The notes: generated by a model not told the origin, from the letters alone. A stretch of 46,926 bases of DNA from Candidatus Aenigmatarchaeota archaeon (GCA_030600555.1 JAUVLW010000005.1:1-46926); one strand, 5' to 3'; positions 3,809 through 46,926 are shown, counted from the stretch's first letter. A program made the numbers and translations.

Positions 3809-3961
3809 TTTACCATACTTTGTATTGAATTAAAATATTATATTAACCAAAATCAATATTTGAATATATACTTTTCATTTTGACTTGAATTAGACCTAAA
3901 AAACATCAGTTTTAAATCTTGATGAATATAATTATGAAAATAGAATCAAGAGGTGCAAAAA

Positions 3962-5416: not shown

Positions 5417-5417
5417 T

Positions 5418-7081: not shown

Positions 7082-7089
7082 GTATCATT

Positions 7090-9384
7090 ATGAATGAAGC
7101 GGAAACCAGAGCAGAACTAATTGACCCAAAATTAAGAGAAAGCGGTTGGGGAGTTGTAGAAGGGTCTAAAGTATTGAGAGAATACCAATTTACGGATGGA
7201 AAACTGCGAACCGCTTTAGGAAGGGCAAAACCCTCAATTGCGGACTATATCTTAGTTTACAAAGGAAGAAAACTTGCGGCAATGGAGGCTAAAAGCGATG
7301 AAAAAGAAGTTGGGGAAGGAGTCGGACAGGCAAAAGATTACGCTGAAAAACTCCATTTAGAAACCACTTTCGCAACAAATGGCAAAGAAATTTATCAGAT
7401 TTGCATGGAAACCGCTAAAGAAGGATTAATTGACAATTTTCCAACACCTGAGGAACTATGGAATAAAACCTTTAACATTCAAAACAACTGGAAAGAAAAA
7501 TTCAATGAGACTCCAAATGGGGGCATTTACACACCAAGATTTTATCAGGAAATTGCAACAAATAAGGTTTTGGATACTATTGCCGAAGGTGAAAAGGACA
7601 GATTATTATTAACTCTTGCAACAGGAACCGGAAAAACCAAAATTGCTTTTCAAATTGCATGGAAACTATTCCAGGCTCGTTGGAATTTAAAACGAGACGG
7701 GGCAAGAAGACCGAGAATTTTATTTCTCACAGACAGAAATATTCTTGCAAATCAGGCATTTAATGAATTTTCTCCTTTCCCCGAAGATGCTTTGGTGAGA
7801 ATTAAACCAAGTGAAATAAGAAAAAAAGGTTCTGTTCCAACAAATGGGAGCATATTTTTCACAATATTTCAAACCTTTATGAGCGGTCCGAATGATACTC
7901 CTTATTTTGGAGAATATCCAAAAGACTATTTTGACCTAATAATTATTGATGAATGTCACAGAGGGGGAGCAAATGATGAAGGAAATTGGCGGGGAATAAT
8001 GGAATATTTTTCTCCCGCAGTTCAATTAGGTTTAACCGCCACCCCAAAACGAAAAGACAATATGGACACTTACAGATACTTTGGAGAACCTCTTTATGTT
8101 TATTCATTAAAGGAAGGAATCAATGATGGTTTCTTAACTCCGTTTAAAGTTAAAAGAATTGAAACAACACTGGACGATTATGTTTATACTTCCGATGATA
8201 AAATAATTGAAGGAGAAATAGAAGTTGGAAAAATTTACGAAGGAGCTGACTGGAATAAAATAATCGAAATTAAAGAAAAAGAAGCGTACAATGTAAAACT
8301 GCTTTTACGGGAAATTAATCAAAATGAAAAAACCATTGTTTTTTGCGCAACCCAAAACCATGCGCTCGCAATTAGGGACTTAATTAATCAATTCAAGAAA
8401 AGCAAAGAACCAAATTACTGCGTGCGTGTTACTGCCAACGACGGGGAACTGGGCGAACAATATTTGGAAAAATTCAAAGACAATGAAAACACAATCCCAA
8501 CAATACTCACCACTTCGCAAAAACTTTCAACAGGCGTTGATGCAAGAAATATTCGCAACATTGTTTTAATGCGTCAAATTAAAACCATAATTGAATTTAA
8601 ACAGATTGTTGGACGAGGCACCAGATTATTTGAGGGAAAAGAATTTTTCACAATTTATGATTTTGTTAAAATATCCCATCACTTTAACGATCCTGAATGG
8701 GATGGCGAACCATTGGAACCTGAACCTCTGACAAAACTAAAGTCAGTAGAAGTAACAGAAGAACGGACTCCATTTGAAGGAACCGCAGAAGGAAAACCAA
8801 AAAAGAAGATAATAAGAATAAAATTAGGGGCTGGAAAAGAAAGAGAAATTCAATGCATGATTCAAACCTCATTTTGGAGCGCAGAAGGAAAACCAATTTC
8901 CGCAGAAGAATTTTTACAAAATATATTTGGAAAACTGCCTGACTTTTTTAAAGATGAAAATGAACTTCGCAAAATGTGGTCAAATCCCATAACCCGAAGG
9001 GCTTTGTTAGATAGATTAGCAGAAGCTGGTTATGGGCTTAATGAACTAAAAACATTGCAACAGTTAATAGATGCTGAAAACAGCGATTTATTTGATGTTT
9101 TGGAATATATTTCCTATGCAATAAAACCAATAACAAGAGAAGAAAGAGTTGCCAAAGCGCAATCAAATATATTTAAATCATTGGACAATAACCAAAAAGA
9201 ATTCTTGGAATTTGTTTTATCCAATTATATTGAAACTGGCATTGAGGAACTTGATCAAGAAAAAATTCCAAATCTCCTTAAAATCAAATATAATGAGATT
9301 GAAGATGCCACTCAAAAATTAGGAAATGTTGAGAGAATTAGAGAAACCTTTATTGATTTCCAACAATATCTGTTTGCTAAATAG
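7090..9384 (+). CDS. hsdR: Type I restriction enzyme R subunit (HsdR)
   Basis: 764 aa; N-terminal nuclease region (PSIADYILVYKGRKLAAMEAKS), ATGTGKT Walker A, DECHRGG, GLTATPKR, QIVGRGTRL motor motifs. Confidence 0.95.
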   Translation: MNEAETRAELIDPKLRESGWGVVEGSKVLREYQFTDGKLRTALGRAKPSIADYILVYKGRKLAAMEAKSDEKEVGEGVGQAKDYAEKLHLETTFATNGKEIYQICMETAKEGLIDNFPTPEELWNKTFNIQNNWKEKFNETPNGGIYTPRFYQEIATNKVLDTIAEGEKDRLLLTLATGTGKTKIAFQIAWKLFQARWNLKRDGARRPRILFLTDRNILANQAFNEFSPFPEDALVRIKPSEIRKKGSVPTNGSIFFTIFQTFMSGPNDTPYFGEYPKDYFDLIIIDECHRGGANDEGNWRGIMEYFSPAVQLGLTATPKRKDNMDTYRYFGEPLYVYSLKEGINDGFLTPFKVKRIETTLDDYVYTSDDKIIEGEIEVGKIYEGADWNKIIEIKEKEAYNVKLLLREINQNEKTIVFCATQNHALAIRDLINQFKKSKEPNYCVRVTANDGELGEQYLEKFKDNENTIPTILTTSQKLSTGVDARNIRNIVLMRQIKTIIEFKQIVGRGTRLFEGKEFFTIYDFVKISHHFNDPEWDGEPLEPEPLTKLKSVEVTEERTPFEGTAEGKPKKKIIRIKLGAGKEREIQCMIQTSFWSAEGKPISAEEFLQNIFGKLPDFFKDENELRKMWSNPITRRALLDRLAEAGYGLNELKTLQQLIDAENSDLFDVLEYISYAIKPITREERVAKAQSNIFKSLDNNQKEFLEFVLSNYIETGIEELDQEKIPNLLKIKYNEIEDATQKLGNVERIRETFIDFQQYLFAK

Positions 9385-30458: not shown

Positions 30459-30863
30459 CTAATTTGTCAAAATAATCTTGTTTCCAATATCCTCAAACCT
30501 TATTATCAATATTCCTTTGGTATTATCAAAACTGGATTCCACCACATAACCGTCGTAAGTGCCTGCAAGAGTTGCGGGGTTTACCGCAGAAATATCCCCA
30601 TCTAGAGTATAACATATAAAATCTTTTGCAAATCTTTCTCCAGTTTTTGACCAGCAGATTTCTATATAAGTCTTCACCTGAGATTCTGAAAAAGAAGCGC
30701 TTGTCATATACTCAGTTTCGTGAGATTTTTCCCCATTCTCAAGATTCAACATTTCCTTTATCTGATCAGAAAATCCAAAAATAAGCCCAATCACAACTCC
30801 CGCTGCAACCAACAAAATAATCCAGCCAACTAATGTATCCAACGCCAAATCTCCTTTTTTCAT
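30459..30863 (-). CDS. Pilin-like small membrane protein
   Basis: Start taken at MKKGDLALDTLVGWIILLVAAGVVIGLIFGF, a class III-like signal/TM; overlaps the upstream gene stop (30860) by 4 nt. Confidence 0.7.
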   Translation of the reverse strand: MKKGDLALDTLVGWIILLVAAGVVIGLIFGFSDQIKEMLNLENGEKSHETEYMTSASFSESQVKTYIEICWSKTGERFAKDFICYTLDGDISAVNPATLAGTYDGYVVESSFDNTKGILIIRFEDIGNKIILTN

Positions 30864-31402
30864 CCTTTCACCATAATACAATCATTTGTATAATCATAAT
30901 ATATTAATAATACTTTTTGAGTATTTATAATCCCTCCATCCACAGACCAGATTATCTGGTCCTTTGCTCCGCACCCATAATCAGAATTCTCTATGGAACT
31001 ACAATGGTCTTCTTTCACCAGAATATTGCTCACATTTCCTTCATCAACATTGGCCACAGTTTCAGTAAGCACTAATTCATAACAGGCATAATCTTTTTCC
31101 AAACGCAAATTTTCAACTTTATCCCAACAGGAAATTATATAAGATAATAGAATTCTGGACACTATCTTATTATCGCTTTCCTCTATTCTAAAAGTCTCCA
31201 AAGGTTTTCCATAAATGCAGATATCAGGAATTGAAGGATTCTCTGAAGAAGGCATTAAATTGGCTATCCTAATATAAGAACCGCAATATAACATGGTAAG
31301 ACTCTCCTGCAGAGTTCCTGTAATAAGACCAATAAATAATAACACGCCAGTAAGAGCAATTACCATCGCAACAACAACATCAATCCCAAGTCCCTTACCC
31401 AT
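30860..31402 (-). CDS. Pilin-like membrane protein
   Basis: 180 aa; MGKGLGIDVVVAMVIALTGVLLFIGLITG N-terminal TM; overlaps neighbours on both sides. Confidence 0.65.
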   Translation of the reverse strand: MGKGLGIDVVVAMVIALTGVLLFIGLITGTLQESLTMLYCGSYIRIANLMPSSENPSIPDICIYGKPLETFRIEESDNKIVSRILLSYIISCWDKVENLRLEKDYACYELVLTETVANVDEGNVSNILVKEDHCSSIENSDYGCGAKDQIIWSVDGGIINTQKVLLIYYDYTNDCIMVKG

Positions 31403-31790
31403 AATATCTATTTTCTATAATTACCTTATCTAATGTATAACTCACTATAATATAAACAGGTCCTGTTAAATCATCCATCTCAAGGTCATTAGAAGTAATC
31501 CTAAGAGGGTCGAGACGTTGCATTAATTCGGCTTTAGTCAATGTGCCCGTAAAATTCGCAAATATTTTAAAACAAAGAACGGTGTCATGACTTCCTTCAT
31601 TTTGTTCAGCGCAATCATAAATATATTTCTTTAAATCCAAAATAATATCATCTTTATCCCCCTTAAGTTCAATCTCATTTCCATTATCTACATGAATAAA
31701 AGAAGTTGCTATAGAGATAAGCACCAGCACAGCAAAAACACTTGCAACTAAGAACATTATTGTTTGCACTGAATATTCTTCTCCTTTCAT
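31395..31790 (-). CDS. Pilin-like membrane protein
   Basis: Start taken at MKGEEYSVQTIMFLVASVFAVLVLISIATSF (31790), overlapping the T2SF gene stop (31787) as ATGA. Confidence 0.65.
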   Translation of the reverse strand: MKGEEYSVQTIMFLVASVFAVLVLISIATSFIHVDNGNEIELKGDKDDIILDLKKYIYDCAEQNEGSHDTVLCFKIFANFTGTLTKAELMQRLDPLRITSNDLEMDDLTGPVYIIVSYTLDKVIIENRYYG

Positions 31791-33865
31791 ACTGAACCCG
31801 AAATCTGCAAGACAATTGGCTGGAAGATCATAACCATAATTATCATTATTACTGAAAAGAATATAAGTGCAATTGTAAGGTTCCTTGATATTGTATAATC
31901 CCTGCAAACTTCATCAAATCCCCTATCAATCCCTACAATAAAAATGCACATTATCACAACAACTTCTATAAGATAGATTCCTATAGTCAACTCCAGAATA
32001 GTCGGAGGCATCACCTCTTCCAGTTTTATTAAATCCAGACCCTGAAACACAGTACTTCCCGACCCGCTGGAATACATTTTTTCCACCTTTGAAAGGGCAA
32101 AAGCAATACTCTGTAAAAGTTGAACAATTAAAACACCCGTGGCCGCAGAAATGCCTCCCATTAAAGGAGCGATGAATGTTGTCTGTGTTTTTAGATTGGT
32201 AACAACATCTTCAAGCAAATATTTTATCCTTGCCTCTATCTTTTCTGTTTTCTTCATGCTGCGAATAATACTTTTAATCGCTCCCGCAACAATCAGAGGT
32301 CCTTTTGTTAAAGAATCAGAAATAATACCCATTATATTTTTTATTGTTGAAGAAGGATAATCTTTCATTATCCCATATTTTTCATCAAATAAAGAACTCT
32401 TGAAAGTCATTGAAAGACGGGAAATACTGTTAAATACTCTGCTAAAAAATTCATAGACCGGTGTTTTTTTCCGGTTCATCCGGTCATATTTATTAAGAAC
32501 TTTTGGCAACGCAACTTCAATTGGGACATTTTGAGCCAGAGGATTCTGCAACTCAAACAAACCATCTATCATATTTGCCTCTGTCTTTTTTATATATTCC
32601 TCAAGTTGATAGCGATCCTTACTTGTAAAATAAGTATAAACAATTATCGCGCTTCCAATACCCCATATAATAAACATAGCGCTTAAAAGGTCCCACAAAA
32701 TATACTCTGACCCATATCTTGCCAGACAATATTCTTTCCATTGATCATCAGCAAAATCCCCTTCATAATTAGCATATATAAAATGCTGGTCAAACACAAC
32801 CTGACCTATATATAAAAGACCTGGAATGATTAAAATAGTCCCAATTAAAATCGCAGTCATCTTTATTGGCAGTTTTATGTTATATTTTCTTATCTCGATA
32901 AACTTGGCGGGTTTTATGCCTCCGGTTTTTGAAGAATGCGAAAATGCGCTTGGACGCCTTGAAACCAACCTATAAAGATACCACCATAGCAAAAAAGGCA
33001 ATATTATCGTATACCCGACTATAATATATATTGGATTCACCGAATCTGTTAAAAAAACGCTTATGATAGGGAACATTATCAAACCCATCAAAGGCAAAAT
33101 AATCCCAAAAGACATCAACATCATAGAAGGCATCTTTAAATCAACAGCATACTGTTCCATCCTTGTATAAGTATTCTTTAATGTCCTATCCAACGCCTCT
33201 TCCAGCAACTCGTGCTTTCTTTTCTCTGAAGAAGTCATTCCAACCATCTGCAGAGTAATTAAAGAAGTCACAAACTCTTCGTTCCATATCGTCCACTTCC
33301 GAGTATGCACTCCAATAGCTTCTCTGATACTAATATATTTACCCATATCCACATCCCAAATAATCTTTTTGTAATCTTCTCCTATAGGTCCATAACAATT
33401 CATTGCAGCAAACTCAACAGCTTTCTCAAAAACGGGATTCAAAGACAGATAAATAACCATATACAAAATTATATCAACCATCTCATTTCCAGCCCTTATA
33501 CGCACAACATCAGAATTAAATTTTGGATAAGAAAAAACATTGTAACCAATAAATAAAGGTATACCCATCACCACAAGCAGGTTAGTTGGAGATTCCAACA
33601 ACATAGCGAATGGAAACAGAAGCAAAAATGAAACAAGCATTGAGAAAATTAAAGCAGAAAAAACTTCATCAGAATTCACCTTGAGCCCGGACATAAAAAT
33701 TGCGTCATCCCATACTTTTCTCAAAAACTTCGGGGTTCTTAACTTTATATAAGTATGGGTAAACTTGCAAAAAGATTCGTATTTACCCAAAGTAAAAAAT
33801 TCAATTTCAACTTTTTCAAACCTTTTATAATATTCAGATTTTGGCAATGGGGTCTGGTCAACCAT
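31787..33865 (-). CDS. Archaeal type IV pilus/type II secretion (T2SF/TadC-like) platform membrane protein
   Basis: 692 aa; two halves each with soluble helical segments and TM clusters; MVDIILYMVIYLSLNPVFEKAVEFA, TSLITLQMVGMTSSEKRKHELLEEALDRTL. Confidence 0.75.
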   Translation of the reverse strand: MVDQTPLPKSEYYKRFEKVEIEFFTLGKYESFCKFTHTYIKLRTPKFLRKVWDDAIFMSGLKVNSDEVFSALIFSMLVSFLLLFPFAMLLESPTNLLVVMGIPLFIGYNVFSYPKFNSDVVRIRAGNEMVDIILYMVIYLSLNPVFEKAVEFAAMNCYGPIGEDYKKIIWDVDMGKYISIREAIGVHTRKWTIWNEEFVTSLITLQMVGMTSSEKRKHELLEEALDRTLKNTYTRMEQYAVDLKMPSMMLMSFGIILPLMGLIMFPIISVFLTDSVNPIYIIVGYTIILPFLLWWYLYRLVSRRPSAFSHSSKTGGIKPAKFIEIRKYNIKLPIKMTAILIGTILIIPGLLYIGQVVFDQHFIYANYEGDFADDQWKEYCLARYGSEYILWDLLSAMFIIWGIGSAIIVYTYFTSKDRYQLEEYIKKTEANMIDGLFELQNPLAQNVPIEVALPKVLNKYDRMNRKKTPVYEFFSRVFNSISRLSMTFKSSLFDEKYGIMKDYPSSTIKNIMGIISDSLTKGPLIVAGAIKSIIRSMKKTEKIEARIKYLLEDVVTNLKTQTTFIAPLMGGISAATGVLIVQLLQSIAFALSKVEKMYSSGSGSTVFQGLDLIKLEEVMPPTILELTIGIYLIEVVVIMCIFIVGIDRGFDEVCRDYTISRNLTIALIFFSVIMIIMVMIFQPIVLQISGSV

Positions 33866-33917: not shown

Positions 33918-34514
33918 ATGAAAAAGGGTCAAATGAGTTTAGAAATGGTTATTGGACTCGTAATTCTGCTGGTAGTCGCAGGTGTTATAATAAGTTTATT
34001 ACTGTACTACATAAGTCCTGACAGGATGCCAAGCGCTGCGGGAGAATTAGAAATGAGAGAATTCCTTGATAAATGCGAGGGATACTGTAAAGAAAGTTCG
34101 AGTCTCAACTACTGCACCCATTATTTTGGGCAGGACATACCTGTTACCAGAGTTGATTGGGACGGGGACGGAGAAGAAAACGAATTGATAACTATAGGCA
34201 AAAAAGTGCAATGGGATGTATGCGAAGACAGGATTTATTGTTTCCTTGTTGCGCCATGCGCAAGATTCGGCGATGTTCCAATGAAAGGTTGCGCAAATCA
34301 ACTATGCCAAGCAGGATACACAAAATATGAGAACTTTACTCTTGCCACAAGATATGTAACCCAGGAATTAGATGTAGTGCCAACAAAAGATATAGAATGC
34401 GGAGAATCTTTAGAAGAACTTCCTCTAGAGTCTAATTGGTTCACAAGATACTTCAATGCAACTATTAATAATGGCACACACCAGATACCTCTTTGTGATT
34501 ACTACAGAAATTAA
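33918..34514 (+). CDS. Class III signal peptide-containing pilin with Cys-rich ectodomain
   Basis: MKKGQMSLEMVIGLVILLVVAGVIISLLL; ectodomain CEGYCKESSSLNYC...WDVCEDRIYCF...C...C paralogous to the 39773-40741 protein. Confidence 0.8.
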   Translation: MKKGQMSLEMVIGLVILLVVAGVIISLLLYYISPDRMPSAAGELEMREFLDKCEGYCKESSSLNYCTHYFGQDIPVTRVDWDGDGEENELITIGKKVQWDVCEDRIYCFLVAPCARFGDVPMKGCANQLCQAGYTKYENFTLATRYVTQELDVVPTKDIECGESLEELPLESNWFTRYFNATINNGTHQIPLCDYYRN

Positions 34515-34544: not shown

Positions 34545-35030
34545 ATGAAAGGTATCTCTGAAGAATTCATATATCTGGTTGTAATTGTTCTTGCCATTTT
34601 CACCTTACTTGCATTTCTAACAACACAAAGCTTATTGAAAGAGACCGAAACAGAACAAACTGTTGGTCTCAGGTTCCTAAGAGAAGAAGGAAACCTCGCA
34701 ATATTTTCTTTATTCAATAACAAAGTTGACTTCGTGGAGAAACCTTATATAGAAACAGTTATAGATGCAGTTCTTTCAAAACACCAGAGAAATGATCCAA
34801 CAGAACAATATAAAGCATTCTATGGAATTGGTGTAGGCACACTAAACAACACAGAAATAATTCCTTCTTTATTTGAAAATTATATGCCTGGTAAATGGAA
34901 ACTTGAAGTAATTACCCCAAATAGAACTGTTGAATATGGGTTTCTTTCAGGAGAACCCAGATATGTCTATAAGCAATTGATACCTGTGCCTGAACAGAGG
35001 ATTGGATTGGTAATTTTGTATTTTGGATAA
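34545..35030 (+). CDS. Pilin-like/minor pilin candidate membrane protein
   Basis: 161 aa; N-terminal TM ISEEFIYLVVIVLAIFTLLAFLTTQSL; follows the pilin gene. Confidence 0.65.
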   Translation: MKGISEEFIYLVVIVLAIFTLLAFLTTQSLLKETETEQTVGLRFLREEGNLAIFSLFNNKVDFVEKPYIETVIDAVLSKHQRNDPTEQYKAFYGIGVGTLNNTEIIPSLFENYMPGKWKLEVITPNRTVEYGFLSGEPRYVYKQLIPVPEQRIGLVILYFG

Positions 35031-35443: not shown

Positions 35444-38400
35444 TTAGCCACGCACGCAACGAACAAAGACTTCAATGCTCTTACTACCAGTACGTTGGTT
35501 ACAGGTATAGAATAACAAAGAGTTGGCGTCGTCACTATTAGACTCAATGGAAGACCAATAGTCACTAGAATAACCCTCTTTACCAAAACAGGTACCAAAA
35601 CAGGAACTGCATAGATTCTCTAAAGTGGTTAAATCCGGTAAAACCCAATCAGTAAACCCTCCATAATCAAGATTGTAGCAGTAATTATACGCCCCCTCCC
35701 AGTTATATAATAAATCTGGTGTAGATGTCCAGCACTTATCTGTGTTGCAGTCTACATAAACGGTGTCACTGCCGATAGTATGTGTTTCATAACCAGTACC
35801 TGAACAAGAACATAATGGCTGGGTTATATTAATTGTTTCTATTCTTTCATTATTATTTTCATTAGATTCTTCAATACTCTTAAAAGGATCAGCAACCACT
35901 TTGATTTGGTATTGTCCTGAAGTTGAAAATATAATATTAGGTGTCCCAACAACACCAAATACCCTATTTTTTGTTTGGTCGGGATTCAATCCACCGTTTG
36001 TACCCGCACCTACATCCTGACCTAAAATAGGTATCTCAAATCTCATCCAGACATGATTCCCTTCTGTAGTGCCAGCATATGCAGTACCTATGTTTTTGAC
36101 ATAAACAGTGACTTCTATTTTTTCGTTTATTTTTGGATTTATTGGCGTCCAAGAAATGTCTGAAATCACAAGGTCTGGTTTAGCGTCGCATGCCCCATCA
36201 ACACAGGCACCGAAACCATTTGCAAGACATCCAACAGTAGTATCGCTTCCAAGACAACTACGATCTTCTGGAGAAGCAGAAGTTGGACCACAATACCACT
36301 CACGCACCATACCAGAACTATCAGGACAACTATCAGTATAGGTTCCAGTGCTGTCTTTACAGACACCCTTTACAGCAAGCCAATCCGGAAAACCAAGATG
36401 GCTATCAGAATCTGTGCAAATAGTTTTACCCGCAAATTCAAACATTCCAGAAATTGTGCTTCCAGCAACCCAAACCGCACCATTATCACCAGGGCGACCG
36501 TTTTTCCAAAGAGCTATATTGGTTGCGCTCATTATCTTACCTTTGCATTGCGCGGGTATTGTTGGTATTCTCCAAATTTTTCCAGTTGTGCCCTTGTTTA
36601 ATGGATACATACCTGACATATCTCCGCCAGTATATTGTATATCACACAGACCATCTGTACTATTTGCATCTACCTGAATATACATCTCATTATCATAAGG
36701 ACAATCACCGGCATAAGTTACTGTAAATTCAATACCTTCACCTTCTTCACAAACAGATGAATCTCCAGGACTGCACCAAGTGGTTATTGATGCTGAAAGG
36801 ATCGTACAAACAGCAGGTTTTTTAGTTAAAATGACTGTTATGATTGTATCTTTATTAATATTAAGAGAACCAATACCACTCGTATAACCTGTTTTGTCAA
36901 CCTGATATTGATGAGTTCTGTCTTTTTTAATGCCTGAGATAATACATTTGCCTGTACTGGCGGTAGTGCATTGACCTAACCAATCTGAGGTATCCGGGTC
37001 AACCACACCCACTTCAGCACCGCTTAAAGGGTTACCTGAATTGTCACGGACATAAAATGTTGCTTTTATTATATCAGAAATAGGTTTACAAATATTTTTA
37101 TTGGTAGCACTATCATCGCAACCATCAGGGCATACATATTCATTGATTTTCGCTCTAGTTCCATCACAATATCGTTCATGCATTATCGAAGTGCCACAGT
37201 CATCATAATAAGTATAAGTCGCACCATTGTAAGTCCCAGTTACAAATCCCTCAGTATAATAATCATTTCCACCATCTGAATCTGTGCAGGTAGGGCAAGT
37301 TCCGCAATCACCTGAGCAGGTTGAACAGTCTTCGCCAATAGCTGTGTTGCATTGTTCTATTCCACAACAGTCTGTTATTGAACAATCCTGAGTGCATCCG
37401 GAAGAGCATTCTCCTGAATCACAGTTATTGTCTCCGCAAAAGGGATTGACTTGACAACCAGATAAACTTGTGCAACACTCAATACAATCAGAAGCTCCTG
37501 ATATTTTACCAGTAACGCAAATACTTGGGTCACAGCAAACCCCATTCAACTGAGCACATGTTTGTGGTGAGGCTTGGCATTGAGGGTCTGTTTTGCTGAG
37601 TACATTCAACGTATGTATTTTACTGGCTGAACAACCGCCAATAGTTGCCGTTATTTTATAAGTTCTTGTACCTGGTGCACCCCATCTATGATTCTCATCA
37701 TAATAAATTCCCGTTCCTGCCGTTTCATTATAATATGAGGTCAGATCCCAATTAGTCATCCAGGGATTGTCTAGTAAAACTTTGAATACAGAAGGATCTG
37801 TTAAAATATTATTTTTCCTGAATTCTAAAGTCATATTTAATGAATCTCCCTCGCAATAAATCTGTTTATCAAAATTCATTACTATTGAACAATCATTAGA
37901 ACCACCACAATCATTGTCATTAGGATATGTGCAACCTGAAGGACAGCATCCATCATTGCTAACACAGGTAGTTATTGGTATATAATTACATTGTCCAGCA
38001 GAGCAAAGATTTTGTGTGCATGGGTTTGCATCATCGCAATCCTGATTTACTTTGCATGGTAATGCCTGACATAAACCTAAAGTTGGACAGCATTCAGAGC
38101 AATCAGAAGCCCCGGATATTTTACCTTGAATGCATATGCTAGGATCACAACAAAAACCACCTAAATCACCGCAAGTAGCAGCAGAACATTCAGGACAAGC
38201 TATTTCATTTTGCAGATATCTTATAACATAAGCATTACAATTATTTGTATATTTCATTATATAGGATTCATAGCATTTACCTATAACAGGTTGGTTTTGA
38301 GTCCTAGTATTATCAAGCCACAACCATAATTGCTTTCCGCAATTGGTACTATCTCTGATTTCAACCAAATATTCTGTTGACGGGGTAGCTCCTTCCGAAC

Positions 38401-39379
38401 AACCATTATTTGCTGTGCAACCTTTTTGAATAATTTTTAGTTTATGATTATCAGCTATCCACGTAGGGTCTTCATGAGTATGACAATTATCACATTCAGG
38501 ACAGGTTACCTCACCGGATAATTTATTGGCTATGGTATGACCACAACCTCCCCCTGTATTAATCTTCACTAAATAACATTTCCCAATATCCAATGAAACA
38601 CTATCACCAAGATCAGACCAAACCCATAATTGCTTTCCGCAATTAGTTCCTCTTCTAATTTCAATTTTATATTCTGTACCGCAACTATCTGTGCATCCTT
38701 TTTCCAAAACTTTCACTTCATAGTCATTTTGGGGTAACCAGGAAGGATCTTCATGAGGAATATGGCACTTTGAATCTTCTCCCCCAATAATTATATTCGC
38801 AGTTGCGGATTTTGGTGGCAACGGGCTGAAGCAGACAGCAACAATCCCAATTGTTCCGTTTTCTTTTGCTTTGAAAGTGTTTGTATAAGGGTCTGTTTTA
38901 ATATTGCTTACCGGAGAATAAACTGAGTAATCCACAGGATTGTTTATTTTATTAATCATCACATACAAGCCATCAGTGCAATTAGTTACTGTACAAGTAC
39001 AGGAAGCTCCAATTTTACATGTTGTTGGACACTGGAGAAACGAATTTGTGATCTCAATTTCCTTTTTTAGAATAACCGGGATTGAGGTGCTGAAACAGAA
39101 ACCCATCACTTTTATTTTTCCTGTGCCTGTTGGTGTGAAGCTTACTTTTGCAGGGGGGATACCCGCAATCACAGGAATCTGCAATGGATTTCCTTCGCTT
39201 TTTAAAACCACCCATAAACCACTGGTACAAACACCTCCATCCAACTTTAGTTCACAGAAACATTGTTGGTTTATAGAACATTTGGAACAGTCAAGACTGT
39301 CCGCGAATGTTGGTGTTGACAATAATACAAATAATAAAATTAAGAAAAATAAGTTACTAAACAAAATATTTAGTTTCAT
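35444..39379 (-). CDS. Giant Cys-rich secreted protein with CARDB-like and C-terminal DUF1566/Lcl-like domain
   Basis: 1311 aa; signal peptide (LFSNLFFLILLFVLLSTPTFADS), many paired-Cys modules, CARDB-like PDLVISDISWTPINPKINEKIEVTVYVKNIGTA, C-terminal GGFTDWVLPDLTTLENL...YWSSIESNS...VFVRCVRG (DUF1566-like). Confidence 0.8.
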   Translation of the reverse strand: MKLNILFSNLFFLILLFVLLSTPTFADSLDCSKCSINQQCFCELKLDGGVCTSGLWVVLKSEGNPLQIPVIAGIPPAKVSFTPTGTGKIKVMGFCFSTSIPVILKKEIEITNSFLQCPTTCKIGASCTCTVTNCTDGLYVMINKINNPVDYSVYSPVSNIKTDPYTNTFKAKENGTIGIVAVCFSPLPPKSATANIIIGGEDSKCHIPHEDPSWLPQNDYEVKVLEKGCTDSCGTEYKIEIRRGTNCGKQLWVWSDLGDSVSLDIGKCYLVKINTGGGCGHTIANKLSGEVTCPECDNCHTHEDPTWIADNHKLKIIQKGCTANNGCSEGATPSTEYLVEIRDSTNCGKQLWLWLDNTRTQNQPVIGKCYESYIMKYTNNCNAYVIRYLQNEIACPECSAATCGDLGGFCCDPSICIQGKISGASDCSECCPTLGLCQALPCKVNQDCDDANPCTQNLCSAGQCNYIPITTCVSNDGCCPSGCTYPNDNDCGGSNDCSIVMNFDKQIYCEGDSLNMTLEFRKNNILTDPSVFKVLLDNPWMTNWDLTSYYNETAGTGIYYDENHRWGAPGTRTYKITATIGGCSASKIHTLNVLSKTDPQCQASPQTCAQLNGVCCDPSICVTGKISGASDCIECCTSLSGCQVNPFCGDNNCDSGECSSGCTQDCSITDCCGIEQCNTAIGEDCSTCSGDCGTCPTCTDSDGGNDYYTEGFVTGTYNGATYTYYDDCGTSIMHERYCDGTRAKINEYVCPDGCDDSATNKNICKPISDIIKATFYVRDNSGNPLSGAEVGVVDPDTSDWLGQCTTASTGKCIISGIKKDRTHQYQVDKTGYTSGIGSLNINKDTIITVILTKKPAVCTILSASITTWCSPGDSSVCEEGEGIEFTVTYAGDCPYDNEMYIQVDANSTDGLCDIQYTGGDMSGMYPLNKGTTGKIWRIPTIPAQCKGKIMSATNIALWKNGRPGDNGAVWVAGSTISGMFEFAGKTICTDSDSHLGFPDWLAVKGVCKDSTGTYTDSCPDSSGMVREWYCGPTSASPEDRSCLGSDTTVGCLANGFGACVDGACDAKPDLVISDISWTPINPKINEKIEVTVYVKNIGTAYAGTTEGNHVWMRFEIPILGQDVGAGTNGGLNPDQTKNRVFGVVGTPNIIFSTSGQYQIKVVADPFKSIEESNENNNERIETINITQPLCSCSGTGYETHTIGSDTVYVDCNTDKCWTSTPDLLYNWEGAYNYCYNLDYGGFTDWVLPDLTTLENLCSSCFGTCFGKEGYSSDYWSSIESNSDDANSLLFYTCNQRTGSKSIEVFVRCVRG

Positions 39380-39771
39380 AATTTTAATTCATTTTTTATA
39401 TATATAGTTTCTAATATCCTCGTTTGATTGCCGCAGACAAAAATAATCATATAATTACCAACGTCCAAATTATTAAAATCATGTTTCCCAGAAGGATTTT
39501 CCAATATCCATGAATAAGTTGACTCCCCTTTTTGCAATACAACTGCAGAATCGCCATAACATCCAAACCATTCACAGGTAACTTTATTATTACCTGATTT
39601 TTCACAACTGTATTCTATAGTTGTTTTTTCCAGCTCTGATAGAACAGAAGAATCAACTGAGGGGTTTGCTCCAGATTGCATTAAAAAATAAACTAAAAAT
39701 ATAGCCACAACCATTAAAATTCCATAAACCAAATAATTCCCTTTACCTATATTTTTATTTTTAGCTTTCAT
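39376..39771 (-). CDS. Membrane-anchored small surface protein
   Basis: 131 aa; TM YLVYGILMVVAIFLVYFLMQSG; 4-nt overlap with the 1311-aa gene start; ends 2 nt from the pilin gene. Confidence 0.65.
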   Translation of the reverse strand: MKAKNKNIGKGNYLVYGILMVVAIFLVYFLMQSGANPSVDSSVLSELEKTTIEYSCEKSGNNKVTCEWFGCYGDSAVVLQKGESTYSWILENPSGKHDFNNLDVGNYMIIFVCGNQTRILETIYIKNELKL

Positions 39772-39772
39772 A

Positions 39773-40741
39773 TTAAGGACAACCAGTCATAACAAATGGT
39801 GTTCCTGCTGGATTTGTACAACTCAAAGAAATAATCCAAGTAGTTGATGGACCACAAGCAAAAGTATTATCAAAACCACCTGGTTGAGAAACTAAAGTCA
39901 CCCCATTAACTATTGATGCACCATCAGTCCTCAGAGAACCGCTATCCATATCAGCTACACTTACCAGAGTTGCAGTATTACAATTAGTATTGCAAGTTAT
40001 TGTATAAGGCGTTGTGGTTTTATCAATAACACAACCACTTAAAGTTGCTGCTCCGCCTCCGCCGCAATCCACAGCACAACTTGCTGCGGTTTCTCCAATT
40101 GCCGCATTACAACCTTCAATTCCACAACAGTCTGTTACAGTGCAATCTGCAGTACATCCACCAGAACACTCGCCTGCCTCGCAAACCCCATTTCCACAAT
40201 TAGCCGACACTCCGCAAACATCAGCAGGGAAATATTGCTCAAACCAATTATCTTCTATATTTGCTGGTAATCTGCAATTTCCGGGTTTTACTTTATCATG
40301 AACAGCCGCATTTGCTTTGGTAACATCACCTTTGTATTTATCTAAATAAGCCTGACATAAAGCACTGGCACAACCTTTCGCAGGGACTGAACCAAATCTC
40401 CTGTCGCATGGAACCATTGAAAAACAATAAATTCTTTCCTCGCACACATCCCAAGTAACATATTCTCCAATTGAAATAAGTTCATTCTTACCTCCATTTC
40501 CATCCCAGTCAGTGCCATCTGCTCCACCTTCAAAATAATACCTGCAATAATCTAATGAAGAACTCTCTGTACATAAAGCATCGCATTTATTTTTAAACTC
40601 CATCTGCTGCATTTCAATTTCCTTATAAGGTAAACTATCCGTACCTATGCGTGTAAGAATCATACTAATAATTACTCCGGCAACAACAAGTAAAATTATA
40701 AAACCAACGATCGTTTCTAAACTCATTTGACCTTTATTCAT
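39773..40741 (-). CDS. Class III signal peptide pilin with appended Cys-rich module
   Basis: 322 aa; MNKGQMSLETIVGFIILLVVAGVIISMIL; paralogous ectodomain to 33918-34514, then CGNGVCEAGECSGGCTADCTVTDCCGIEGCNAAIGETAASCAVDCG. Confidence 0.78.
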   Translation of the reverse strand: MNKGQMSLETIVGFIILLVVAGVIISMILTRIGTDSLPYKEIEMQQMEFKNKCDALCTESSSLDYCRYYFEGGADGTDWDGNGGKNELISIGEYVTWDVCEERIYCFSMVPCDRRFGSVPAKGCASALCQAYLDKYKGDVTKANAAVHDKVKPGNCRLPANIEDNWFEQYFPADVCGVSANCGNGVCEAGECSGGCTADCTVTDCCGIEGCNAAIGETAASCAVDCGGGGAATLSGCVIDKTTTPYTITCNTNCNTATLVSVADMDSGSLRTDGASIVNGVTLVSQPGGFDNTFACGPSTTWIISLSCTNPAGTPFVMTGCP

Positions 40742-40839
40742 AATATATTACACTACCTTATATATAAGAACGTCCAAAAAATATTTATCAACCTTGGATA
40801 GAAATAATCAAGTAAGACAATATTAAAACATCCATCAAC

Positions 40840-41688
40840 TCAAGGTAATATAAATTCAGTTATATCTTCATCTTCCGTGATTCCAACATACCTTTCCCAT
40901 TCTTCCCCTTCAATTTCAACCACAACTTCTTTAATCAATTTGTAGTTATAATAATTCACACCAGAAATTTTTGTGGAAACTACATCCAAATTTTGGTTTT
41001 CAAAATATTCAATCGCTAATTCAATTGCTCTCGAATCTGTAAGAAGCATTCCCTGAGTCTCACACTTTTTAGTTAGTTCATTGCATATTTCTTCAGGTGA
41101 GTAACAAGCGCAATCAATACAACAATTATTAGGATTCTCATAAGGTTCGCAATTCCCGTCTCCGCAAACCGGTTTTACGCATTTCTTTTTTGTTGAAGAA
41201 CAATATTCTTCATTCCCGCACTTGCAATCTTTTGGGCAATCAAAACAGTTTTCTCCCGGTTCACAAATATTATTCCCGCAAACATACGTTGGCTGACAGA
41301 TACCGCAATCTTTTGGGCATGTAGAACATAATTCGCCTGCATCGCATTTATTATCCCCGCAAAATGAAATAATCTCACAAACACCGCAATCAACAGGACA
41401 ATTAGAACAATTTTCCATTCTTTCGCAATTACCGTTTCCGCAGGTTGGTTTTACACAGGTTTTTTCTTTGGAAAAACAATATTCTCCTTCATTGCATTCA
41501 CAGTCCTCAGGGCAATCAAAACAGTTTTCTCCCGGTTCACAAACCATATTCCCGCAAGATTCCTTTGTAAAATTATATATTATAAAAATACTTGTTAATA
41601 TACCTATGACAAGAAAAACTGCAACAAATTGATTCTTGTTTACCACCTTCATATTTTTTTCTTCCCCAATATCATATTGCATAATCAT
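40840..41688 (-). CDS. Membrane-anchored protein with tandem CGNxxCEPGENCxxCPxDC repeats
   Basis: 282 aa; N-terminal TM FVAVFLVIGILTSIFIIYNF; five Cys-rich repeat units; a 34-bp identical DNA repeat at 41234-41267 and 41510-41543. Confidence 0.75.
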   Translation of the reverse strand: MIMQYDIGEEKNMKVVNKNQFVAVFLVIGILTSIFIIYNFTKESCGNMVCEPGENCFDCPEDCECNEGEYCFSKEKTCVKPTCGNGNCERMENCSNCPVDCGVCEIISFCGDNKCDAGELCSTCPKDCGICQPTYVCGNNICEPGENCFDCPKDCKCGNEEYCSSTKKKCVKPVCGDGNCEPYENPNNCCIDCACYSPEEICNELTKKCETQGMLLTDSRAIELAIEYFENQNLDVVSTKISGVNYYNYKLIKEVVVEIEGEEWERYVGITEDEDITEFILP

Positions 41689-41689
41689 A

Positions 41690-43534
41690 TTACCACATAT
41701 TCTTAATTTTCAAAGTTGGGTCTCCATAAAGACAGTTAATTATATACTCACGGTTGCCATATACGCTCCAATAACTATTTTTGCCCGCCATATAATAATC
41801 ACCAACCCTATTCCCAACACCCGTTCCAGTGTTTACCTGAAAATTGTTTGCCACTAGGGCATATAAAGTCCCTATAAGTCGGTCTCCGCCAGGGACTGGA
41901 CAACCAGCACCCAGGGTTCCTCTATTATTGGCAGTACTCCCAAAATAAATTGCACCATTATTCTTTAAAAAAGTCATTGGAATTGAACCTAAAGTTGATG
42001 ACTTTAATCTTAAGTGGCCGCCGCCGCAAGACATAGACATCCAGACAGCATTTGAAGTGTCAATACCCCCAACTCCAAAAGGATTTGTATTTAAACATCC
42101 TCCATGCAATAAATCTGAACTTGAAGGACCGGGTCCATGCGCAAGGATAGTAACAAAATCTTTTCCTGAAAGAGGCGCTAAAGAAATACAACCGCAACAA
42201 GTTCCGCAAGCAGAACAAGAACCCCCCCAGACCGCTGAGCAAAAACACCTGCCGCTAGTCCATGCGCGATTATCATAGCCTCCACAACTCATTATCGGGG
42301 CAATATAATCTGATAAATCCAACCCGCCTGAATTATGCAAAGAAATGCTTGTATCCAAAGCATTCAAAATCACATCCAAATCACCATTATTAGGGTCAGG
42401 AAATCTTCCAACAGGAATATCTAACACATTATCTTTTGGATTAAAATCTCCATAATAATTATCTGTCTCATATGGCTTCCCATAAGCATAGCCCACATGA
42501 GGTTGTATAAACCTATCATAACCCCCAATGATTACAAGATAAGATGAATTTAATTTTGGAATCAACTGATCAAGAATGCCATCAATATTAGTGCTGCTGC
42601 TTGGATTAGTTACTTTACTCCCTATTATATCTGAAGTTTCATCTTCGTCAAGATAAAGAAATATTGACCCAAGACCGTCGCTACCCAGTGCTGACTGATA
42701 AGCCTTTATCTTATTTTCAAGTTGTGTTATTTGAGCGGGAGAATATACAGTTTGCATATTAGATTTTAAAGCAACTATTAAAACTTCACCTCCAAATACA
42801 CAATCTGTTCCATTCCAACTCTTTCCCGGTTCGCAGCAGGCTTTATTATAACCATAAAAAGTTGTATCTGTTGGATTGCAGGTAAGAGTTGTATTGCATT
42901 CATTGTCGCAAAAACATTCTTCTCCTTTTGACATGTTAAGTCTGGTATCATCAACGCAACCGGATTCATCTGAGTAAGGGTCCTCAGGGCAACAAGTGGG
43001 GCTAGAACCGCTTGCATTGCAGATACAATCAACTGAATTTAAACAATTTTCACCTATATCTGGGTTGCAAAATCCATCTCCTATACAAATTAGGTTTGGT
43101 CCATAACAATCAGGGCAATTTTCCAGACATTCGTCCGCAGTGCAAATAGTATTCATATCGCAATCAGGAAGTTCTTCAGAGATATAGATTTCTCCATTGG
43201 CTAAATGCACAAAACAAACACTTGCTATCTCTTTTAAATCAACATTATTAGCTTCCTTTGGTATTGGATAAAAAGATTCCTTTCCACCCTGTCTGAAAGT
43301 TAAATAACCCTGCTCTATTTTTAAATCAGAAAGCGAAATGTTGAAACAATAACTTACATATGAAGGCTCGCTTGTTAATTTTTCAAGCACAGACACAATT
43401 CTTTCAGCAGTTCCTTTTGCAATATAACCTTCGGTTTCATCAACACTGCCAGTAAGATAAACCTGAGCAGCAAAGAAAAGTATTAGACCAACTAAGATGG
43501 AACCTATCATTAAAATATAATTGTCTATCCCCAT
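41690..43534 (-). CDS. Pilin-like-anchored clan CD (C25 gingipain-like) cysteine peptidase
   Basis: 614 aa; N-terminal TM DNYILMIGSILVGLILFFAAQVYL; Cys-rich linker; VIIGGYDRFIQPHVGYAYG, LDIPVGRFP, FVTILAHGPG (His), VWMSMSCGGG (Cys), CLYGDPTLKIKN. Confidence 0.75.
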   Translation of the reverse strand: MGIDNYILMIGSILVGLILFFAAQVYLTGSVDETEGYIAKGTAERIVSVLEKLTSEPSYVSYCFNISLSDLKIEQGYLTFRQGGKESFYPIPKEANNVDLKEIASVCFVHLANGEIYISEELPDCDMNTICTADECLENCPDCYGPNLICIGDGFCNPDIGENCLNSVDCICNASGSSPTCCPEDPYSDESGCVDDTRLNMSKGEECFCDNECNTTLTCNPTDTTFYGYNKACCEPGKSWNGTDCVFGGEVLIVALKSNMQTVYSPAQITQLENKIKAYQSALGSDGLGSIFLYLDEDETSDIIGSKVTNPSSSTNIDGILDQLIPKLNSSYLVIIGGYDRFIQPHVGYAYGKPYETDNYYGDFNPKDNVLDIPVGRFPDPNNGDLDVILNALDTSISLHNSGGLDLSDYIAPIMSCGGYDNRAWTSGRCFCSAVWGGSCSACGTCCGCISLAPLSGKDFVTILAHGPGPSSSDLLHGGCLNTNPFGVGGIDTSNAVWMSMSCGGGHLRLKSSTLGSIPMTFLKNNGAIYFGSTANNRGTLGAGCPVPGGDRLIGTLYALVANNFQVNTGTGVGNRVGDYYMAGKNSYWSVYGNREYIINCLYGDPTLKIKNMW

Positions 43535-43559
43535 ATATAAATTAAGATATTATACTAAT

Positions 43560-44135
43560 TTAGACTTTTAAATATTTACCTTCTTTTGCTCTTGTTGTCC
43601 TTCTATAATAAATAACTCCGATTATTCCTAAAACAATCAAGATAATTAAACCAGCCGCTAAAAAAAGATAATCTTTCGTTTTTTGGAAATCCTGTGTTGT
43701 TTCTTTTGATTTATTCAATTCTTCTTTTTCCAGTTCCATCAATTCAGTAACTTCTATCTCCGAACCATTTTCCAAAACACAAACAGCGCATTCTTCACCA
43801 TAAGTACATCCTTCAGAAACAGTTTTTATTTTATATCCTTTTTGTTTGCAGTAAGTATATTCTTTTCCTTCTTTTCCTTCAAGAAATTTCCACTCTTCAG
43901 CTTCCGAACCGTCTGGAAAATGGCAGATTCCATAATCACCTTCAGGAGCACTTTTAATTGTATAATTATAACCTAATTCTTCGCAATAAACCGCTGCAGG
44001 ATTTGGCATTGGATTAACTATCATGGAAGCAGAACTGATAGAAACAATTCCAATAAAAATTATTATCGTCATAACAAAAACTCTTGCCTGATTTTTTCTA
44101 AAAAAACTTACCGCTTTTTCTTCTTTATTTTTCAT
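43560..44135 (-). CDS. DUF333-like domain membrane protein
   Basis: 191 aa; NPAAVYCEELGYNYTIKSAPEGDYGICHFPDGSEAEEWKFLEGKEG (DUF333-like) and a second, partial repeat; N- and C-terminal TMs. Confidence 0.72.
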   Translation of the reverse strand: MKNKEEKAVSFFRKNQARVFVMTIIIFIGIVSISSASMIVNPMPNPAAVYCEELGYNYTIKSAPEGDYGICHFPDGSEAEEWKFLEGKEGKEYTYCKQKGYKIKTVSEGCTYGEECAVCVLENGSEIEVTELMELEKEELNKSKETTQDFQKTKDYLFLAAGLIILIVLGIIGVIYYRRTTRAKEGKYLKV

Positions 44136-44196
44136 AATAATATTTTTGTTATATTAAAGTAAACCTTATAAACAAATCCTGATTCTCTTTTTATTT

Positions 44197-45933
44197 TTAT
44201 GGTGGTGTCACTCCAACTACATAATGAACCCCCCAGGATTCTATTAACATTTGTCCATAACCTACCTTAAAATATCCATTACCACTATATCCAGCACCCC
44301 AACTATTCCTGACAATCCATTGGCTTCTGGCATCATCATATCCAACTATCACTATTGCATGGTTTGGACTTTTTCCTCTACCACCCATTTTTATATATGC
44401 TGATACAGGACCATGATTAACTATTATTTTTTTTATTTCGTCCCGTCCTCCAACCCATCCTTTATCCACATAATTTCCTATTTTCCACAAATTTGTGCTC
44501 CATGCAGCGCACCTTGAACTACAAGCAACATTACTTGCTTTATAAGGAAAACAGGATTCCTCAGTAATTCCACTATCTCTCATATATATCAGCGCTGACT
44601 TAGGCCAACCGCCGCTACAAGTTCCTGCACTACAACAAGTAGAAACCAAATATCTCTCAGCAAGGTTTATATCTAAAGTAGGATTATTTTGTTCAATATT
44701 ATATTGCCCTTCTACTGCCCCTATTGCTGAAAACGCCCAACAGGATCCACAAGACCCTTGATTTCTGACTGGACTCATCCAATCAGCTCCTCCCGCCGGC
44801 AAAGCACCTGGCAATTCCTTATGGCTCCAGTCAAATGAAGTAGGAAGAGCAATGCAATCATTATCAGTAGTGCTATCGCAACTCAACGGACAACACCCAT
44901 CACCATTTATACAAGCAACAGATGGGTTGGAACAAGAAGCTATACAAGTGCCCGAGTTACTACAACTATCAGGACCTGTGCAACTGTCGCTGTCATCGCA
45001 ATCAGCATTATTATTACAAACTGGATTCCGACAAGTTCCTGCACAACAGATTTGAGGGGCAATACAAGCACCTGAACAATCAAGAGAATTAGAACAACCA
45101 TCCCAAAGATTAGTTCCGCATTGTCCTGAATAATCAACAGCGCAAGTAAGAGTTGGAACGCAACAATCATTATCCGTAGTGCTATCGCAACCCGCTGGAC
45201 AACAATTGTCATTATCCATACAAACAATGATAGCAATATTGGAACAAGAAGCTGTACATGTACCTGCGTTACTGCAAATATCAGCAGTGCAATCATTACC
45301 ATCTTTGCAATCATTGGGACCATTACATATTAAAGTTTGGCAAACATCAGAGCAACATATCTCAGAAGGAACGCAAGCACCTGAACAATCAAGAGAATTA
45401 GAACAACCATCCCAAAGATTAGTTCCGCATTGTCCTGAATAATCAAGGCAAGTTAAAGAAGGAACACAAACCATTATATTAAAGGTTGCTCCATTTTCAT
45501 CTTCTGAAAAATATCCTAAATTATCATTGGCAATTATATCAACAAAATAGGTTCCTATAAGTCTCCCTGTTGAATCCCAAGTATTTCCATAAATATTATC
45601 ATTAGCTGCTCCATCAGAATGCAAACCATCATCATAAAGAGTAACTAAAGCAACATCAGTTTCGTCCGGGTTTTGAATATGCGCTATTGCAGAACCAATG
45701 CCTGAAACATCAGAAACTTGAGATGTAATAATAAATAGAGTGTTTAAAGAACCTGAAGTGGGAAGTACGGCGGTATTTTGAATGAGTGGATTTGGAGAAG
45801 GAGCTACCTCAAAACTAGGATCGCTGGATAAAATAATATTTATTTCAATAACGGATAAAAGTAAAAATATAAATAATATATATATAATTTTTCTCATAAA
45901 TATATTTTTAATTTTAAAACTATATATTCTCAT
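44197..45933 (-). CDS. Secreted papain-like (C1A) cysteine peptidase with duplicated Cys-rich modules
   Basis: 578 aa; PVRNQGSCGSCWAFSAIGAVEGQ (Cys), NHAIVIVGYDD (His), VRNSWGAGYSGNGYFKV (Asn); N-terminal TPTSG/YDDGLHSDGAANDNIYGNTWDSTG module. Confidence 0.9.
   Translation of the reverse strand: MRIYSFKIKNIFMRKIIYILFIFLLLSVIEINIILSSDPSFEVAPSPNPLIQNTAVLPTSGSLNTLFIITSQVSDVSGIGSAIAHIQNPDETDVALVTLYDDGLHSDGAANDNIYGNTWDSTGRLIGTYFVDIIANDNLGYFSEDENGATFNIMVCVPSLTCLDYSGQCGTNLWDGCSNSLDCSGACVPSEICCSDVCQTLICNGPNDCKDGNDCTADICSNAGTCTASCSNIAIIVCMDNDNCCPAGCDSTTDNDCCVPTLTCAVDYSGQCGTNLWDGCSNSLDCSGACIAPQICCAGTCRNPVCNNNADCDDSDSCTGPDSCSNSGTCIASCSNPSVACINGDGCCPLSCDSTTDNDCIALPTSFDWSHKELPGALPAGGADWMSPVRNQGSCGSCWAFSAIGAVEGQYNIEQNNPTLDINLAERYLVSTCCSAGTCSGGWPKSALIYMRDSGITEESCFPYKASNVACSSRCAAWSTNLWKIGNYVDKGWVGGRDEIKKIIVNHGPVSAYIKMGGRGKSPNHAIVIVGYDDARSQWIVRNSWGAGYSGNGYFKVGYGQMLIESWGVHYVVGVTPP
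45065..45137. repeat. 73-bp direct repeat, copy 1 (inside papain-like gene)
   Basis: CAAGCACCTGAACAATCAAGAGAATTAGAACAACCATCCCAAAGATTAGTTCCGCATTGTCCTGAATAATCAA; identical to 45374-45446 (309-bp period). Confidence 0.88.
45374..45446. repeat. 73-bp direct repeat, copy 2
   Basis: Identical to 45065-45137. Confidence 0.88.
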
Positions 45934-46783
45934 TTTCTCTACAATTACCTAATATATCACAGGCTGTTATATCTACATAATATGGTGCTAATGGAAATCC
46001 TGTTGAATCCCAAGTATTTCCATAAATATTATCATTAACGGCACCATCAGAATGCAAACCATCATCATAAAGAGTGATTAAAGCAATATCTGTTTCGTCC
46101 GGGTTTTGAATATGCGCTATTGTTGTGGTTGCATTTACACCTGATGAATCTGTTATCTCAGCAGTAATAATAAACACAGTGTCCATTGGTCCTGAAGTTG
46201 GATTAATTTGAGCATTTTGAATAATTGGTGAAATAAAATCTTCATTTGTTGTTTTAATATTTATTTTAGTTATATTTACACCCACATTATCTCTTTTAAG
46301 TATTAAATTATATTCAAAAGACTCTGGGTTTCCTTTTATCTGATTAATTAGGGAAGTTAATGAAAATTCTATTGGTACTGCACCTAAGAAAGGTATCCTT
46401 GCATTGCAGTCAAGTTGTTTACATATAGTTTTTTTATTTTTTATTTTGATGCATAAGAAATCACCTGATGAAACATTTTCTTTTATGATGGAATCTATTA
46501 AATCTGTATTATTGTATTCCCCATATTGATCTGAGGTTAAATAAATTCCAATAATGTTTTTGTTTAAAATCAGGTTTGCTTCTTTTTGGTTTCCTAAATA
46601 ACTCCAGCAGAGTTCGTTTGTTTGTGTATATAGTTCATCGTATTGCTCTAGAACACTTTGTTCAGTTACTGTGTTTATCATTTGGAGTGAATAAGAATAA
46701 CCCAAAGTTAAGATTAATAAACCTGCGATGATGCCTGCAACAATCCATATCCAGACCTCCACGGTACCCTTCATAATTAACAC
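45920..46783 (-). CDS. Pilin-like protein with ectodomain module shared with the papain-like peptidase
   Basis: 287 aa; MKGTVEVWIWIVAGIIAGLLILTLGYSYSLQ N-terminal TM; AHIQNPDETDIALITLYDDGLHSDGAVNDNIYGNTWDSTG nearly identical to the neighbour. Confidence 0.72.
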   Translation of the reverse strand: MLIMKGTVEVWIWIVAGIIAGLLILTLGYSYSLQMINTVTEQSVLEQYDELYTQTNELCWSYLGNQKEANLILNKNIIGIYLTSDQYGEYNNTDLIDSIIKENVSSGDFLCIKIKNKKTICKQLDCNARIPFLGAVPIEFSLTSLINQIKGNPESFEYNLILKRDNVGVNITKINIKTTNEDFISPIIQNAQINPTSGPMDTVFIITAEITDSSGVNATTTIAHIQNPDETDIALITLYDDGLHSDGAVNDNIYGNTWDSTGFPLAPYYVDITACDILGNCRENENI

Positions 46784-46807
46784 TCGAAGGTATAAAAGTA
46801 TTTGTTT

Positions 46808-46926
46808 TTAATTACAACAAACTGCTGTATAAGTTGCTCTCCAAAAGGCACCACCAACTTCATAATGAGTGTATTGGGTATTGCAAAAATATAGAGGAAA
46901 ATAATTATTTACGCCAGAAGGCATCC
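46808..46926 (-). CDS. C-terminal fragment of a protein running off the window edge
   Basis: Minus-strand frame reads ...MPSGVNNYFPLYFCNTQYTHYEVGGAFWRATYTAVCCN* with stop at 46808-46810; no start inside the window can be assigned. Confidence 0.5.
   Translation of the reverse strand, partial: MPSGVNNYFPLYFCNTQYTHYEVGGAFWRATYTAVCCN

Follow-up and report, generated by a model that had tools for sequence, protein, structure and literature searches.

The window analysed here, 46,926 bp of DNA (GCA_030600555.1, JAUVLW010000005.1:1-46926), is one entire contig (C10) of an 815-kb, 82% complete metagenome-assembled genome (MAG) of a Candidatus Aenigmatarchaeota archaeon (DPANN). From position 30,459 to its end it carries a gene cluster that, in our judgement, probably encodes a dedicated surface machine resembling a type IV pilus, in which minor (probably tip) modular pilins hold exchangeable secreted hydrolases together with cognate partners. 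Comparison of the predicted proteins with those of relatives (G numbers below) showed that the modular pilins combine a pilin-like stem and a Cys-rich connector with one of several non-homologous hydrolases, and that the hydrolase is exchanged along with a partner domain. From this organization we infer the display of the enzymes on filaments, their target and their function.

Three stems (A, B and C) bear non-homologous hydrolases at an equivalent position, and each of these fusions unites in one chain a pilin module and a non-pilin functional domain, the composition that defines a modular pilin. The payloads comprise C25, C1A, M64, metzincin-like and transglutaminase-like domains, SLT, and SLT combined with M23; classes below the Pfam cut-offs rest on motifs and on models built in this analysis. 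Between the C25 protein of the window and a papain protein of G007, stem and Cys module are 58% identical over 245 residues, and beyond that point the two proteins are unrelated; the same stemA and Cys module end in a papain in G093 and G041 as well. Within one genus, the papain protein of G041 and the metallopeptidase protein of G040 (assigned through a HELGHTFGL motif and a model built here, Pfam giving no match) are 62% identical to residue 298 and unlike thereafter. Other payloads are SLT (G036, G037 and G039, with a Pfam SLT match of 2e-5 for G036), SLT plus M23 (G042, Pfam 1e-10 and 2e-19), SLT plus a reprolysin-like domain (G035) and, on stemA-type proteins of G134, G055, G097 and G001, transglutaminase-like domains assigned from weak Pfam matches (4e-4 to 5e-4) and a model built here. 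StemC bears either C25 (G001, G005, G097) or metallopeptidases (G030, G031, G032, G055), while stemB ends without payload, in a choice_anch_X module (the window), or in a papain (G009), a transglutaminase-like domain (G006, G001) or a metallopeptidase (G030, G032, G042). A further pilin-like stem, that of the gene at 31,395 in the window, carries an M64 peptidase in G001. By parsimony, on trees built from short domains and weak in their deep branches, the catalytic class changed at least eight times on stemA (27 sequences, quick tree), three times on stemB and twice on stemC. The catalytic residues of the C25, C1A and metallopeptidase domains are kept, with motifs intact in most members (the C25 dyad, His in xHG and Cys in xC[SGQ], is invariant across six divergent ones), which suggests that the enzymes are active.

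Some observations stand beside this census. Four stemB proteins (L020:12334-13512, L154:7878-9116, L159:302-1453 and L150:9475-10626) have a further C-terminal domain, which may resemble glutamine-amidotransferase-like folds. In G093 the conserved pilin-like protein P14 (L074:4200-5708) bears a von Willebrand A domain (1e-13), as do the bacterial PilB adhesin pilins. Lysozyme-like SLT domains occur phylum-wide, in 43 of 160 Aenigmatarchaeota genomes, and in G003 a C25 gene (L023:6468-7600) is split into several pieces by in-frame stops.

The exchange of enzyme and partner can be followed in G009 and G006, close relatives in which the flanking proteins are 80-88% identical. The stemB fusion genes of the two share 79% DNA identity as far as the Cys module reaches, and the alignment returns, at 86% DNA identity, in the C-terminal Cys/transmembrane part of the next gene. 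The middle does not align: G009 has a papain and DUF333 where G006 has a transglutaminase-like and an Ig-like domain. The differences in both enzyme and partner are thus explained by one replacement spanning the C-terminus of the enzyme and the N-terminus of the partner, so that an exchangeable C-terminal effector and its cognate partner were swapped as a block, in the manner of polymorphic toxins. Across the loci compared, the nearest partner type fits the enzyme class in 33 of 33 cases: proteins with CGN repeats accompany C25 (9), DUF333 proteins accompany C1A (8), and members of the MP family accompany metallopeptidases (16, of which 15 directly downstream). Under random pairing such perfect agreement would have a probability of 4e-14, a figure that is only descriptive, given related loci and an MP model whose source proteins had drawn attention by lying next to metallopeptidases. 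MP members outside the model-building set also adjoin metallopeptidases, in G032 (two genes), G030, G055 and G063. The CGN protein lies directly downstream of C25 in all nine loci; DUF333 lies directly downstream of C1A in eight and, in five further papains (5 of 15), is fused to the enzyme, N-terminal to it in four of them.

In the window itself, the first-pass annotation had described eight minus-strand open reading frames (ORFs) between 35,444 and 46,926 and a type IV pilus platform nearby. All eight are located as it had them, nearly contiguous (gaps of -14 to +98 bp), and the cluster proved to be wider: the segment 30,459-35,030 adds the platform, which lies inside the cluster, and five further pilin-like genes, while the right side is truncated at the contig end (46,926). 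Besides the platform it holds seven or more pilin-like proteins, one C25 peptidase mounted on a pilin stem, one C1A papain, and partner proteins rich in Cys, as follows.

30459..30881, minus strand: pilin-like protein KG30459, leader KKG/DLALDTLVGW, with orthologues in the cluster of G006, G007, G093 and others
30860..31402, minus strand: pilin-like protein KG30860, leader GKG/LGIDVV
31395..31787, minus strand: pilin-like protein KG31395, start probably internal at MKG/EEYSVQ (the listed ORF reaches 31907)
31787..33865, minus strand: TadC/FlaJ-like assembly platform, a 692-aa membrane protein, named from a weak T2SSF match and its orthologues
33918..34514, plus strand: class III pilin, leader KKG/QMSLE
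34545..35030, plus strand: pilin-like protein KG34545, leader MKG/ISEEFIYLV
35444..39379, minus strand: secreted surface protein of 1311 aa with CARDB and Lcl_C (DUF1566) domains; its N-terminal Cys domain also occurs in relatives
39376..39771, minus strand: short transmembrane protein of 131 aa (ORF call)
39773..40741, minus strand: class III pilin of 322 aa with a Cys-rich C-terminal part, leader NKG/QMSLE
40840..41688, minus strand: membrane-anchored putative C25 partner of 282 aa with five CGNxxCxxxENC-type repeats and a conserved 60-aa alpha+beta C-terminal domain
41690..43534, minus strand: modular pilin-like C25 protein of 614 aa (stemA 1-122, Cys module 123-246, C25 peptidase 249-614)
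43560..44135, minus strand: DUF333 membrane protein (E 2e-24), putative papain partner
44197..45933, minus strand: secreted C1A papain (Peptidase_C1, 4e-35) with choice_anch_X and Cys repeats
45920..46783, minus strand: pilin stemB with a C-terminal choice_anch_X module, leader MKG/TVEVWIWIVAG

Most of the earlier descriptions of single proteins held. Pfam and NCBIfam confirmed the DUF1566 end of the 1311-aa protein, the DUF333 domain and the papain; the Cys-rich pilin starts with an archaeal class III leader of textbook form, the five repeats announced for the CGN protein are present, and the last pilin-like protein does share its choice_anch_X module with the papain. The C25 protein was said to have a pilin-like N terminus: its peptidase domain (PF01364, 4e-9) does sit on a pilin-like stem, but its own leader is degenerate (MG/IDNYILMIG). 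That both peptidases combine a Cys module with a pilin anchor is true of the relatives; in the window it applies to the C25 protein only, since the papain has an ordinary signal/transmembrane start and a Cys repeat unlike that of the C25 protein. The active site of this papain (Gln-Cys-His-Asn) is complete, with QGSCGSCWAF, NHAIVIVGY and RNSWG. Relatives also bear out that pilin anchors carry peptidases of two unrelated folds; this was an understatement, as at least six catalytic classes are in use.

Searches of the PDB with the C25 profile and with the DUF333 protein returned nothing significant. The AlphaFold2 (AF2) model of the CGN partner is confident for the C-terminal domain only (alpha+beta, with a predicted local distance difference test score, pLDDT, above 90 in parts); a PepSY-like fold, considered for this domain from its sequence, was dropped when Foldseek gave no significant PDB match (best E 0.05). 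An apparent literature match for DUF333 as a known papain partner was discarded, as the paper, on papain-like peptidases, refers to DUF3335. In G111 a papain that is not pilin-borne and whose catalytic Cys is replaced by Ser (QGACGSSWAF, L076:6000-7148) adjoins a DUF333 gene.

The case for a pilus-like machine starts from the leaders and the platform. PMC4858521 describes archaeal pilins as having a class III leader, retaining the hydrophobic helix once the leader has been removed, and polymerising on a platform. A [KR]G leader precedes a hydrophobic helix in seven window proteins (30459, 30860, 31395, 33918, 34545, 39773, 45920), class III-like leaders are present in most stems, and of the 31 proteins that the stemA model matched, 23 show a KG or KA leader. 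The T2SSF match of the platform is below the cut-off both here (0.053) and in an orthologue (0.0029), and its family is clear in 152 of 160 genomes. The genome encodes one A24 prepilin peptidase (C9:22705-23040, 259 aa, E 1e-7) and, on other contigs, at least three secretion-type (T2SSE) ATPases. Gene maps show that the pilin-like families, the platform and two more genes (P13 and P14) are shared and that the cluster, as a set of pilins, platform and peptidase, recurs in several families of the phylum. StemB was found in 29 and stemA in 32 of the 160 genomes (17 and 19 of 105 genera), and stemB shares a contig with the platform of the system in G000, G006, G007, G031, G032, G035, G041, G055, G063, G093 and G154. 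The C25 relatives are present in 8 of the 11 genomes of the family, yet in only 9 of 160 in the phylum.

The cluster also appears to move. The whole cluster of G007 is flanked by a 67-bp direct repeat (98.5%; L021:10301-10367 and L046:7100-7166); one copy overlaps the 5' end of radA and the other lies behind the last pilin gene, an arrangement that resembles the attachment-site duplication of an island. About 14.8 kb present in G007 are missing from G002 between stemA and the last pilin gene, leaving a remnant (L022:11477-12241) in which the stem and the tail of a different pilin form one reading frame. Between these two genomes stemB is 99%, stemA 93% and radA 78% identical, a pattern that looks like exchange followed by loss of an accessory island.

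In the mechanism that we propose, the A24 prepilin peptidase, whose gene lies elsewhere in the genome, would process the stems; the local platform, served by an ATPase supplied in trans, would assemble them, and the enzyme would come to lie outside the S-layer on minor or tip pilins. Before or during assembly the membrane-anchored partner may chaperone, latch or inhibit the enzyme that belongs to it and so shield the producer. The enzyme would then attack the surface of a host cell, a prey cell or a neighbouring cell, or polymers that yield products for import, and payload exchange would track changing targets. Several points weigh against this account. A clear KG leader is absent from the C25 protein of the window and from all seven founding stemC members, the window papain has no pilin stem, and the cluster contains no VirB11-type ATPase. 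The AF2 model of the C25 protein (an N-terminal helix, then beta strands) is poor, with a pLDDT of 49 from seven alignment rows, and was not used; pilin fold and active-site geometry therefore rest on sequence. The MP model has the partial circularity mentioned above, all genomes compared are MAGs, and filaments, leader cleavage and enzyme activity are predictions from genes.

What the machine does can be read in several ways. The earlier interpretation was supported in part. A lack of co-conservation, one of the conditions named for its refutation, was checked and did not hold, the gene set recurring in several families; catalytic residues are conserved in sequence, and the genome encodes a prepilin peptidase. 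The surface fibre or tip complex that it suggested is soundly inferred. Predation, host attachment and nutrient acquisition, which it had offered as purposes, cannot be told apart from sequence. Archaea have no peptidoglycan, so SLT and M23 payloads would have no substrate there and bacteria are the likely target, which favours attack on bacterial walls in some lineages. A tentative extension, which we hold as a possibility well short of an even chance, is a polymorphic enzyme weapon displayed on pili: contact with host or prey would put a protease, a transglutaminase-like enzyme or a peptidoglycan hydrolase on the envelope, the membrane-anchored DUF333, MP or CGN partner would protect the producer, payload and immunity would be co-swapped in an arms race, and the lineages with SLT or SLT plus M23 would attack bacteria. 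Uptake is favoured by an ATP-binding cassette (ABC) importer (double BPD permease, ATPase and binding protein) that adjoins the enzyme genes in G006, G007 and G009, and signal-peptide C25 and M64 peptidases have been read as nutrient enzymes in Nanohaloarchaeota (PMC9563170). The pilin-like parts could then be mere anchors that keep feeding enzymes on the surface without a filament, as in the Sulfolobus bindosome, with the importer taking the products; we find this unlikely, as a dedicated platform and at least six pilin-like proteins exceed the needs of an anchor and block exchange with partner domains suggests self-protection.

Still less probable, in our view, are enzymes that keep house for the pilus by processing, cross-linking or degrading pilins. 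They do always lie within the pilus cluster, and Makarova et al. (PMC4858521) link transglutaminase-family surface peptidases to archaeal type IV pili and suggest pilin processing or degradation; however, a pilin-processing enzyme should be conserved, whereas here unrelated classes replace one another on constant pilins, SLT and M23 target glycan and peptidoglycan rather than pilins, and the enzymes are themselves pilin-fused. Surface genes often cluster and Cys-rich repeats are common in many proteins, but a chance neighbourhood of unrelated surface genes in a small genome is hardly credible when the gene set recurs across families with identical fusion types and adjacent partners, and synteny contradicts it; MAGs that are independent of one another share identical junctions, for which reason both random neighbourhood and assembly chimera were rejected. 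A pilus-like machine bearing exchangeable hydrolases keeps our preference.

Elsewhere in the window, a 38-residue open frame running off the contig end (46790-46926) may be the tail of another cluster gene. At the other end, a DEAD helicase beside a HamA-family protein (PF08878, 7e-27; 276-3808) resembles the HamA/HamB pair of Hachiman defence, and a Type I restriction-modification locus follows (3953-9384), its methyltransferase gene split in two ORFs and a RusA-like ORF lying between hsdM and hsdS.

Among known systems, the bacterial modular pilins, which present grafted domains probably at the pilus tip, are similar in joining a pilin module to a functional C-terminal domain, and the G093 pilin with its von Willebrand domain recalls PilB. 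Raynaud et al. (2021), working on PilB and PilC of S. sanguinis, listed 264 modular pilin architectures, predicted S74 and M26 peptidases included (PMC8179133), in a survey whose text does not mention archaea; unlike those pilins, a single stem at one locus here repeatedly swaps unrelated hydrolases, each with its cognate partner gene. The archaeal pilus loci with transglutaminase-family surface peptidases of Makarova et al. (2016; PMC4858521) are presented, in the passages concerned, as linked genes of undescribed role, and those passages mention neither fusions to pilins nor exchange of enzymes nor partner genes; 'C25', 'DPANN' and 'papain' are absent from the text. Polymorphic toxin systems, predicted archaeal ones being cited in PMC8416519, likewise have a conserved carrier, an exchangeable C-terminal effector, a neighbouring cognate partner and block replacement, whereas here the carrier would be a pilin, the effectors are predicted exo-hydrolases of surface polymers and the partners appear to be membrane-anchored on the outside. 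SLT- and M23-type enzymes also recall the archaeal peptidoglycan hydrolases that kill bacteria (PMC12352652) and the murein transglycosylases of DPANN in 'vampirism' (PMC9723730), two papers whose main texts contain no word starting with 'pili'. The exchange of pilin-fused enzymes, each with its own partner, suggests a modular surface weapon or feeding tool that we did not find described in the open-access literature searched. The cluster bears on the question of how DPANN archaea break into other cells or draw food from them. It is a widespread and genetically coherent candidate; its enzymes and partners are named and could be expressed and assayed with no culture of the archaeon. Modular pilins would then be known from archaea too, DUF333 would gain a testable function as partner of cysteine peptidases, and archaeal attack on bacterial walls would have an additional route, by way of filaments.

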